Part shown: piece after piece, positions 21,371 to 54,066 of the stretch
How the letters are laid out: each line of letters begins with the position of its first letter
Position numbering within the stretch: the first letter of the stretch is position 1
Translations under genes and position numbers: made by a program
The notes under the pieces: model-generated
What the model was told of the DNA's origin: nothing
The model's input: only the letters and a program-made list of their open reading frames with translations
Database searches by the model: none
NCBI RefSeq assembly: GCF_900142825.1
Contig: NZ_FRCH01000001.1
Coordinates: 248,001 to 312,000, forward strand
Reading direction: 5' to 3'
Length of the DNA stretch: 64,000 nt
Source: Rhodanobacter sp. OK091
Lineage (GTDB): Bacteria; Pseudomonadota; Gammaproteobacteria; Xanthomonadales; Rhodanobacteraceae

Positions 21371-22066
21371 GGGGAGCGACTTCAGTCGCGATGGCTTTGC
21401 GCTTGGGTGATTTGAAGCAAGAGCTTTCGTGCGCCTCTGGCGCGCGAGTTACTTTCTCTTTGTGTGGCCAAAGAGAAAGTAACCAAAGAGAAAGGCCACC
21501 CCGCTTGGCGCTTGCCGCCCATCCCTGGGCGGCAAGTCCGTGAGCCGGGGCCGGGCTTTTCGAACGGGCATCCTGCCCGTGCGAAAAGGAGTCGACCTCC
21601 CTGTCGACTCCCGCTGTGCGGCCTGTCGTCCCCGTCTCACCGCCGCACAGGGGCCCCGGGTAGAGCAGCGGGCCTTCCTGGCCCGCACTCGGTGAAAAGC
21701 CGAAGCGAAGCGTCGCTCTGGCTGTTGCTCTGGCTCTTCTGAAAAGTACGCGCAGGAGGCGCGTTGCTCTACCCGGGGCCCCTCTGAAGCGGCGGGTGGG
21801 CGGAGGAACAGCCCGCAGGGTGGCCGGCATGGATGCCGGCCAGTTTGGCGTCAGGGCAGGAGGCCCTGTCGACAAACCCCGCCACCCACCCGCGGACTTG
21901 CCGGGCAGGAAGCCCGGCAAGCGCGTAAGCGGGGGGTCGTTTTCTCTTGGTTACTTCTCTTTTGGACAAGCAAAAGAGAAGTAACTCGCCCTCCGCAGGA
22001 GGGTGAAAGCTCTGCACTTAATCAACAAAAATGAGCAAGGGCATCGCCCGCAAGCGGGCTCCTACA
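21371..22066. repeat. Composite inverted-repeat element, copy 1 (arm order A-core-B)
   Basis: First of four related elements in the window. From the left: a REP-like hairpin GCGACTTCAGTCGC; a segment with an AAAGAGAAAG-type motif; arm A, containing GCCGCCC/GGGCGGC and GAGTCGAC/GTCGACTC hairpins; a 133-bp core (21650-21782) bounded by the 18-bp inverted repeat GGGGCCCCGGGTAGAGCA; arm B, containing GGCCGGC/GCCGGCC, CAGGGC/GCCCTG and a 10-bp CTTGCCGGGC/GCCCGGCAAG hairpin; the mirrored AAAGAG segment; and a second REP-like hairpin GCCCGCAAGCGGGC. It separates two convergent genes. Short frames crossing it are not credible genes. Confidence 0.93.
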
Positions 22067-22072
22067 AGAAAA

Positions 22073-22108
22073 TCCGGCAGGTACCGATAGAGTCCGGCAG
22101 ATGCCGAT
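22073..22108. repeat. Two-copy tandem repeat, 20-bp period
   Basis: TCCGGCAGGTACCGAT at 22073 is repeated as TCCGGCAGATGCCGAT at 22093, between repeat element copy 1 and the end of the diguanylate cyclase gene. Confidence 0.6.
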
Positions 22109-22179
22109 CACCACTAACCCTGGCTTACGGACTTGCCACCCATCGATGAACGCAGCGTGTTATCTGCCGCTGATGGAGC

Positions 22180-51976: not shown

Positions 51977-52290
51977 TGATGTTCTCCCCCTTGGTTGAAT
52001 ATCCCTGCCGCAGGCCTTCTTGGCCGTGCGGCCCCACTGCATTCCGGTTGCACCGGACATAGATCACCAGGCGAATGGCTTACCGCCGCCCGGCCGCGAT
52101 TGCGCCGGCGAAATGACCGTCTGGATTCCGGCCGACTTGCCATGCATGCTGACGCAAGTCGAATTCGGCAGTCATTGAAAGAAATGACTGTTGCGGCCGT
52201 CGTCATGGCAGTTGTAGGCTCCGCTAGCCCACGAGCTTCTCGCTGGCGGGATCCGCCGCTCCGATCAGGTGCCGTTACGCGCTGGCAAGG
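51977..52290. other. Intergenic interval, 314 bp
   Basis: Between the LLM oxidoreductase stop and the cytochrome-like gene start, both on the minus strand. It must contain the cytochrome-like gene's upstream region. The only structure seen is a small hairpin CAGTCATT/AATGACTG (52169-52190) without a T-run. No credible small gene. Confidence 0.5.
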
Positions 52291-53268
52291 TCATCGTGTT
52301 GCCGAGACGATCTCGAACGAGTGCCGGCGCGCCGCATGCTCGAACACGTTGGCCGTAATCAGCAATTCATCCGGCCGGTGGCGTGCGATGAACGCCTCGA
52401 TGCCGCCCTTCACGGTATCCGCAGCGCCCACCACCGCACAGGCCAGCGCACGCTCCACCATGAGTTTTTCCGGCGGCGTCCAGTACGACTCGATATCGTC
52501 GATCGGCGGCGGGATCAGTCCCGGCCGGCCGCGACGCAGGTTGATGAAACTCTGTTGCTGGGTGGTGAACAAGCGTCGCGCCTCGGCATCGCTGTCCGCG
52601 GCGACCACGTTGATGCCCAACATCGCATACGGCTGCTGCAAGCGCGCCGATGGCCGGAAATCGCGCCGATACAGCGCCAGCGCCTCGTCCATCGCATCCG
52701 GCGCGAAGTGCGAGGCGAACGCAAACGGCAGGCCGAGCTGGGCCGACAGCGTCGCGCTGAACAGGCTGGAGCCGAGCAACCACACCGGCACCTCGATGCC
52801 GGCACCGGGCACGGCACGCACCTGCTGGCCAGGTACCGCCGACTCGAAATAGGCGAGCAGTTCCAGCACGTCCTGCGGGAACGCATCGGCGCTGTCGAAA
52901 TACCGGCGCAATGCCTTCGCGGTCGGCTGATCGGTGCCCGGCGCCCGGCCCAGGCCCAGGTCGATGCGCCCCGGATACAACGACGCCAGCGTGCCGAACG
53001 CCTCGGCTACCTGCAGCGGCGCATGATTCGGCAGCATGATGCCGCCGGCGCCGACGCGGATGGTCGAGGTGCCGCCAGCCACGTGCCCGATCAGCACAGC
53101 CGTCGCGGCGCTGGCGATGCCCGGCATGTTGTGGTGCTCGGCCAGCCAGTAACGCCGGTAGCCGAGACGCTCGCCCAGCCGGGCCAGATCCAGCGTGTTG
53201 CGGAAAGCCTGTGCGGCATCGCTGCCTACGGTGACCGGTGCCAGATCAAGAATGGAAAACGGAATCAT
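52291..53268 (-). CDS. LLM-class flavin-dependent oxidoreductase
   Basis: 325 residues from the ATG at 53268. Luciferase-like monooxygenase fold with features of the 'group 1' family: SILDLAPVTVGSDAAQAFRNTLDLARLGERLGYRRYWLAEHHNMPGIASAAT at the N-terminus, RVGAGGIMLPNHAPLQVAEAFGTLASLYPGRIDLGLGRAPGTD, WLLGSSLFSATLSAQLGLPFAFASHF and the C-terminal RHRPDELLITANVFEHAAR. Uses reduced FMN; substrate unknown. It precedes the cytochrome-like gene, with a repeat element upstream. Confidence 0.9.
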   Translation of the reverse strand: MIPFSILDLAPVTVGSDAAQAFRNTLDLARLGERLGYRRYWLAEHHNMPGIASAATAVLIGHVAGGTSTIRVGAGGIMLPNHAPLQVAEAFGTLASLYPGRIDLGLGRAPGTDQPTAKALRRYFDSADAFPQDVLELLAYFESAVPGQQVRAVPGAGIEVPVWLLGSSLFSATLSAQLGLPFAFASHFAPDAMDEALALYRRDFRPSARLQQPYAMLGINVVAADSDAEARRLFTTQQQSFINLRRGRPGLIPPPIDDIESYWTPPEKLMVERALACAVVGAADTVKGGIEAFIARHRPDELLITANVFEHAARRHSFEIVSATR

Positions 53269-53348
53269 GTCGCGCTCTCGCCAGATCGGAAGTTCCCGAT
53301 CTGGGGACAGTCGTGTCAATTGCCACCGTTGTGCCCACCCTTATTTTC

Positions 53349-54066
53349 TGTGGGAGCGACTTCAGTCGCGATGGCTTTGCTCTTTGGTTGTTTGTTTGAA
53401 GCAAGAGCTTTCGTCCTCCTGCGGAGGGCGAGTCACTTTCTCTTTGCGTGCTCAAAGAGAAAGTAACCAAAGAGAAAGAGCACCCCGCTTACGCGCTTGC
53501 CGGGCTTCCTGCCCGGCAAGTCCGCGGGTGGGTTCCGGGGTTTGTCGACAGGGCCTCCTGCCCTGACGCCAAACTGGTTCGCATCCCTGCGAACCACCCT
53601 GCGGGCTGTTCCTTCACCCACCCGCCGCTGCAGAGGGGCCCCGGGTAGAGCAGCGGGCCATCCTGGCCCGCACTCGGTGAAAAGCCGAAGCAAAGCGAGG
53701 CGTCGCCCTGGCTGTTGCTCTGGCTCTTCTGAAAAGTGCAGGCCACGATGGCCTGCTGCTCTACCCGGGCCCCTGTGCGGCGGTGAGACGGGGACGATAG
53801 GCCGCGCAGCGGGAGTCGACAGGGAGGTCGACTCCTTTTCGCCAGGGCAGGATGCCCTGTCGAAAAGCCCGGCCCCGGCTCACGGACTTGCCGCCCAGGG
53901 ATGGGCGGCAAGCGCCAAGCGGGGTGGCCTTTCTCTTTGGTTACTTTCTCTTTGGCCACACAAAGAGAAAGTGACTCGGGCGCCGCAGGCGCACGAAAGC
54001 TCTTCGCTTCAAATCACCAACCCAAGAGCAAGAGCTAAGAGCATCGCCCGCCAGCGGGCTCCTACA
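53349..54066. repeat. Composite inverted-repeat element, copy 4 (arm order B-core-A)
   Basis: Arm order as in copy 2; the 139-bp core is at 53635-53773 with one G lost from its right boundary repeat. Several stems differ from the other copies by paired changes: GGTTCGC/GCGAACC replaces GGCCGGC/GCCGGCC in arm B, CCTCC/GGAGG replaces GCGCC/GGCGC near the left end, and core stem GCAGGCC/GGCCTGC replaces ACGCGC/GCGCGT. It lies in the divergent space between the LLM and pseudouridine-synthase-like genes. Confidence 0.93.

Follow-up and report, generated by a model that had tools for sequence, protein, structure and literature searches.

What are four composite inverted repeats of about 0.7 kb doing in a single stretch of Rhodanobacter sp. 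OK091 DNA, 64,000 nucleotides long and hereafter called the window? The answer proposed here, to which we would give an even chance of being right, is that they represent cassette elements devoid of genes; in such an element the two inverted arms would stay at a site and the interior would be exchanged, likely by homologous recombination. The original prediction, made from the letters of the window, overlooked this container role: arms of this kind enclose accessory genes in other species.

The four repeats were found within a few bases of their predicted places (Table 1), and a repeat search of the window returned families holding four of four copies, with long inverted pairs between copies, one of them 272 nt at 92%. 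On each side, from the outside inward, usually come a REP tip, a covarying outer hairpin, an AAAGAG-rich K unit, a hairpin called H1 and an arm, which is a stem around hairpins. Inward of the arm lie an 18-bp closing inverted repeat and then the core, and in the window copies the interior is this core only, about 130 bp with the closing repeats included. The composite, REP-tipped plan stands, as do the lack of a transposase in the window copies and a size and modularity well past those of ordinary REP/BIME repeats. The simple mirror arms do not, since the arms are of two types, X and Y. The expected variety of gene settings was also seen, with one copy in a convergent, one in a tandem and two in a divergent context (frames called by composition). 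The gene names murB, MFS, GGDEF and KAS come from reading the sequence by eye.

Table 1. Positions of the four elements and their parts in the window
Feature	Position	Strand	Remark
Element copy 1 (w21)	21371..22066	.	between convergent MFS-type and GGDEF-type genes (by eye)
Copy 1 left REP tip, GGGAGCGACTTCAGTCGCGA type	21371..21391	+	
Copy 1 K unit: hairpin, mirror third strand, loop-complementary segment	21446..21505	+	covariance model R1, covariation
Copy 1 X arm: hairpin H1, stem XS around hairpins XH1, XH2, XH3	21499..21653	+	
Copy 1 core with 18-bp closing inverted repeat	21650..21782	+	gene-holding place in other species
Copy 1 Y arm	21774..21946	-	
Copy 1 second K unit, bottom strand	21928..21987	-	
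Copy 1 right REP tip, GTAGGAGCCCGC type	22044..22064	-	
Element copy 2 (w23)	23661..24364	.	3' of murB (by eye); arms Y/X
Copy 2 left K unit, loop GTGCTC / GAGCAC	23744..23803	+	
Copy 2 core	23949..24081	+	
Copy 2 right K unit; own strand AAGAGAAAA, third strand AAAAGAGAA	24224..24283	-	
Element copy 3 (w47)	47117..47818	.	between divergent genes
Copy 3 left K unit	47199..47258	+	
Copy 3 core	47402..47532	+	
Copy 3 right K unit	47678..47737	-	
Element copy 4 (w53)	53349..54066	.	between divergent genes
Copy 4 left K unit	53430..53489	+	
Copy 4 core	53635..53774	+	
Copy 4 right K unit	53918..53977	-	

No already named repeat or decayed IS was recognised in the elements by Rfam, Pfam or NCBIfam. 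The Rfam scan of the 64-kb window returned two tRNAs only, leaving the elements without a match to any curated family, and none of the seven frames over copies 1 and 2 was given a name by Pfam and NCBIfam; a protein-coding role of the arms was rejected on the same grounds. It had been anticipated that frames crossing the repeats are likely to give rise to false proteins in related genomes. Indeed, an 84-aa frame over copy 2 matches 22 predicted proteins, five of them named hypothetical protein, and the elements flag a source of such entries. A role as a CsrA/RsmA sponge, with GGA loops on one strand, was rejected on inspection, as many of the loops are CGA or TCG.

A search of the whole genome and of relatives, as had been suggested, found copies across the genus Rhodanobacter and weaker matches beyond it. 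With copy 1 as query, the window genome (G000, 4.42 Mb) holds 17 full or nearly full copies counting copy 1 itself, the others being 83-92% identical to it, plus a variant whose core is different, and several halves and fragments; no K partner was listed near the single halves. The high local density noted earlier amounts to a local cluster, four of some 18 genome copies lying within 64 kb (Poisson P ~1.6e-4, chosen post hoc). Copy 1 was matched in all 36 searched genomes of Rhodanobacter and, more weakly, in 8 of 24 genomes outside the genus. A covariance model of the K unit was matched in 47 of 150 genomes of the order (28 of 64 genera) and in 47 of 299 genomes of the phylum (30 of 154 genera) in a scan with strict filters; the majority of genomes are without a match, and many of the matches are inverted pairs 0.35-0.57 kb apart. 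One genome per species was sampled, several of them drafts, with frames called by length and composition. In distant genomes, paired K units enclose different interiors (L227, L230, L232-L234, L236), several of which carry by eye the motif AACTCGC..GCTCA(A/G)ACA and its inverse; BoxC-like G/C-rich triplex motifs were seen by eye in or beside A-rich paired elements at L226, L231 and L239. In Dyella silvae (L127, 11449-11673), a REPIN lies within the core of an element that itself seems to be without REP tips.

The K unit has three parts: a hairpin, CTTTCTCTTTG / CAAAGAGAAAG, then a further purine tract (the second tract), then a stretch that is complementary to the loop of the hairpin. In 16 gapless units picked out of 35, 95% of cells are paired versus at most 51% with slid partners, and the loop helix shows both-sided changes at three of its five pairs. 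In antiparallel purine-motif triplexes, the third strand lies alongside the purine strand as its mirror. When the second tract was compared with its own purine strand in 27 asymmetric combinations, the mirror was better in 22 and the direct repeat in two, with three ties. A pyrimidine strand, a purine strand and a mirror purine strand are thus found on one strand, as in PIT elements and intrastrand triplexes. The K unit carries the sequence signature of a putative intrastrand DNA triplex, and it may fold as a triplex closed by a loop pseudoknot. It points to DNA rather than RNA, because according to PMC4666352 RNA does not form purine-motif triplexes. The same paper describes PIT, BoxC and TMECO elements with the same pyrimidine-purine-purine order, a mirror third strand and, sometimes, inverted pairs. 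The K unit differs from them by its A-rich tract, by pairing between its loop and the stretch that follows the third strand, and by its place in a larger element. The published G/C-rich TMECO / BoxC pattern, CCCTCNCCC..GGGNGAGGG..GGGNGAGGG, is not matched, the K unit reading CTTTCTCTTTG..CAAAGAGAAAG..CAAAGAGAAAG and relatives of it. Neither six K-unit sequence strings nor this combination of features was found in the literature, in a coverage that leaves aside most subscription journals. With their many copies, the elements offer a natural system in which the role of intrastrand triplexes can be tested.

Arm types X and Y show about 70-79% complementarity along most of the arm, rising to as much as 89% in an outer stretch of 88 nt in copy 4. 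RNAalifold recovered the stem and hairpins of the X arm unaided from 24 sequences (25 after a similarity filter, less the longest one, which has an insert), with 57 pairs of which 19 covary. In the named structure, 94.5% of cells are paired versus 34-43% when slid, and 20 pairs change on both sides versus 11.3 in shuffles (0 of 500 shuffles). The arms would take up this structure as single-stranded DNA or in cruciforms. Compared with copy 1, copy 2 has its core inverted relative to the arms, and among the 15 scored of 17 copies the core lies one way in nine and the other way in six. Short elements combine an X with a Y arm in 43 of 48 typed cases, that is 17 of 18 from the window genome and 26 of 30 from seven genomes (31 fetched, one of which could not be typed). 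On the contrary, elements with cargo are X/X or Y/Y in 16 of 18, so that like arms are found in 16 of 18 cargo versus 5 of 48 short elements (p 3e-9). A simple reason would be palindrome instability, since like arms around a short core would make a long near-perfect palindrome.

These cargo-bearing forms consist of half-elements of the same kind that enclose 0.9-5 kb of low-GC accessory DNA at 18 loci, or about 12 sites by flank comparison. Among the K units listed for 15 Rhodanobacter genomes (thresholds of E 1e-3 or 1e-6), 16 pairs point inward at a distance of 0.7-6 kb. They come from 9 of these genomes, and all 16 were fetched; two further two-sided loci, L265 and L266, come from a site 3' of the KAS gene. 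All 18 loci have a half-element on each side and at least one open frame of at least 130 aa between, and seven are from genomes in one or two contigs. The GC content of the cargo is below that of the flanks in 16 of 16 (means 0.557 versus 0.648). Half pairs L251 (297 bp) and L253 (228 bp) were not counted as cargo loci. No long K pair was seen in the window genome, and those of a related genome (G074) were rejected as cargo, being whole elements around host-like genes.

Model matches gave as candidates among the cargo a PDC-S35 protein with a CAP12/Pycsar TIR domain (L244), PDC-S19 (L249), a TIR_2 protein (L252), a NERD protein (L255), PycC next to PycTIR plus PDC-S52 (L265) and PDC-S06 (L266), and an Rhs-like tip was recognised by eye at L260 (Pfam below cut-off). 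Many cargo genes match no family, and the cargo is not only defence, since L246 holds an AraC regulator and a short-chain dehydrogenase. Enrichment in defence matches depends on the threshold: at 1e-50 they concern 6 of 26 proteins from two-sided loci versus none of 45 window proteins (p 0.0016), and at E 1e-10 they concern 7 of 30 cargo proteins versus at most 3 of 45 window proteins, which is not significant (p 0.079). To judge from these family matches, some of the cargo probably protects against phages, and new defence genes may be sought within the elements. Of note, related cargo proteins (43% over 269 aa) were found at L248 and L257, two flank-dissimilar sites in two species; the L248 protein has a Zn_ribbon_Thio2 match.

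Two end types delimit the short core, one CACTCGGT and the other ACTCTTCAGAAGAGC or near it, and at 10 of 16 printed loci both are also found next to the cargo. In the six others (L252, L255, L257-L260), the inner ends do not both match the short-core ends. Common cargo-end sequences, CTATCGGCC on the left and GACCGCTTGCGAC-like on the right, were observed at L291-L293, L262, L265 and L266 and look like a second, smaller repeat system. At the outer side, the ends differ among elements and are REP types, other palindromes or none, some Dyella loci and cargo loci being by eye without REP tips.

That the arms stay and the interior changes is best seen at the site 3' of the KAS gene, for which 34 regions were fetched of 40 genomes. 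No element was present in 22 of them (gap 90-359 bp), both halves were present in five with five different cargos, four had the right half only, and three were left unclassed. In the two-sided loci of G029 and G002 the contig begins inside the left half, and at least four of the element-free loci have a REPIN (L267, L277, L278, L285). When six right sides were aligned inward, beginning at the gene, they were 64-100% alike per 60 columns, and still 75-97% in the last 60; this likeness runs through the half-element and about 100 bp past the last hairpin. Beyond the shared junction, identity falls at one place to 23-53% in 14 of 15 pairs, the exceptional pair (G029/G006) having a neighbouring gene in common. 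At a second site, with flank identity of 82-87%, G003 (L257) and G027 (L261) are the same on both flanks and G034 (L260) matches on one flank only; the three loci have three cargos. The murB-MFS site ranges from a 50-bp gap (L161) to a REPIN (L098), a 290-bp form (L093), full elements (L090, L092, L118) and a cargo form in which halves enclose a 316-aa gene (L158, at the place of L245; R. panaciterrae). In the window, this place holds a GGDEF-type gene flanked by two whole elements, and in L100 and L105 genes are present in the gap without any element. Copy 2 is 82-92% identical to its 16 paralogues, and its identity to the elements that three species have at the orthologous site is lower, 77-82%; a tree of half-elements mixes site signal and genome signal. 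For target-site duplications, the empty and filled sites compared are strongly diverged.

The proposed check for a partner RAYT-type transposase gave none that fits. RAYT is above cut-off in 22 of 40 genomes, and the window genome stays below (best score 73.7 bits versus 80). Among the 18 genomes without RAYT above cut-off are G000, G009, G014, G016, G022, G025, G027 and G033; all of these have element matches, and G014, G025, G027 and G033 carry cargo forms. Y1 relatives lie just under the cut-off in G000, G025, G027 and G033 (67-74 bits versus 80). Pfam Y1_Tnp missed RAYTs in G013 and G017 that NF047646 detected, and its scan was not used against RAYTs. Whole-genome transposase screening covered Y1/RAYT. 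Pfam found no transposase in 30 cargo proteins; the IS genes seen by eye at L261 are outside the 30 proteins scanned.

Homologous recombination fits best because the arms stay and the interior changes, because copies resemble their paralogues more than their orthologues, because both core orientations occur and because no RAYT is consistently present. The arms that recombine would belong to different copies or to DNA entering the cell, so that recombination, rather than an enzyme in trans, would change the cargo. A new copy would presumably start at a REP doublet, that is a REPIN, because some relatives have REPINs at the same intergenic places. Counting against this model, the compared genomes showed neither a recombination event nor a product of excision. 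Its main rival is a transposase in trans that would move empty and loaded forms via the arm ends of a non-autonomous transposon, such as a MITE, a mobile insertion cassette or an element of the TIME-COMP type. Mobile insertion cassettes are likewise transposase-free inverted repeats around passenger genes. This serious yet rather unlikely alternative would explain inverted ends, many copies, cargo between like arms and the lack of a movement gene seen inside, and TIME-COMPs, which are also transposase-free inverted repeats around passenger genes, mobilise the intervening genes (PMC13367494). TIMEs derive from Tn3-family transposons, whereas the Rhodanobacter loci are chromosomal or on draft contigs and keep their arms as the cargo changes. 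The alternative is further weakened by the absence of a transposase among the 30 Pfam-scanned proteins, by the KAS site, where flanks and arms are kept and only the interior differs, and by the variable outer ends.

That the element is a giant REPIN, in which a RAYT would mobilise a REP doublet carrying a large insert, appears improbable. REPIN/RAYT systems (PMC3116915) are alike in inverted REP tips, compensatory changes and intergenic placement; short REPINs with the same tips exist in the window genome, some relatives have REPINs at the same orthologous places, and 22 of 40 genomes have a RAYT above cut-off. Nevertheless, the tips are separated by a spacer of at least 0.6 kb instead of a short one, and the element, which is at least 0.7 kb long, has arm domains and a triplex-type unit and can carry genes, goes beyond the REPIN definition in size and interior. 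Some Dyella and cargo loci are by eye without REP tips, and 18 of 40 genomes, some with cargo forms, are without RAYT above cut-off, a test that near-cut-off Y1 relatives make non-absolute. GTAG- and CGTC-tagged REPs (PMC3733652) resemble the GTAG-type tips and, by eye, the CGTC-like palindromes at some outer ends; in the Rhodanobacter element these are tips only. An intergenic graveyard, in which palindromic repeats gather in neutral places, genes land by chance and covariation comes from template switching, is quite improbable. Template switching can copy one hairpin arm into the other and could account for hairpin pairing, and in L100 and L105 genes came into the murB-MFS gap with no element present. 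Set against these points are the recurrence of one pair of inner ends around the cargo at 10 of 16 printed loci, the shared and sharp KAS junction and the third strand mirroring its own strand in 22 of 27 combinations, which template switching would not be expected to produce. Finally, a structured RNA as the functional product of the element is hardly credible. It would suit the strong covariation, yet the elements have no Rfam match, the K units face each other on opposite strands and, according to PMC4666352, purine-motif triplexes do not form in RNA.

A broader form of the recombination model is put forward tentatively. Folded, triplex-tipped arms at up to about twenty docking places per genome would be the universal homology handles of a protein-free cassette system, trading defence and other accessory genes from place to place and from species to species by ordinary recombination and allowed by missing SbcCD, the palindrome-cutting nuclease. 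SbcD (TIGR00619) is above cut-off in none of 40 genomes of the genus, with weak partial matches in G000, G004 and G012; as a control, it is above cut-off in 8 of 14 well-known genomes. Missing SbcD may let palindromes survive. A cycle of SbcCD cutting and RecA repair was rejected, SbcD being above cut-off in 0 of 40 genomes. Integron gene cassettes carry accessory genes and foldable single-strand sites, the attC sites, in direct orientation. The Rhodanobacter element shares the accessory genes and foldable sites and differs by its inverted arms. If the broader model is true, bacteria would trade defence genes without integrase or transposase, via DNA structure and shared homology alone. Elsewhere in the window, 59765-60059 and 63705-63999 form a 73% direct repeat within two coding regions, perhaps paralogous genes.
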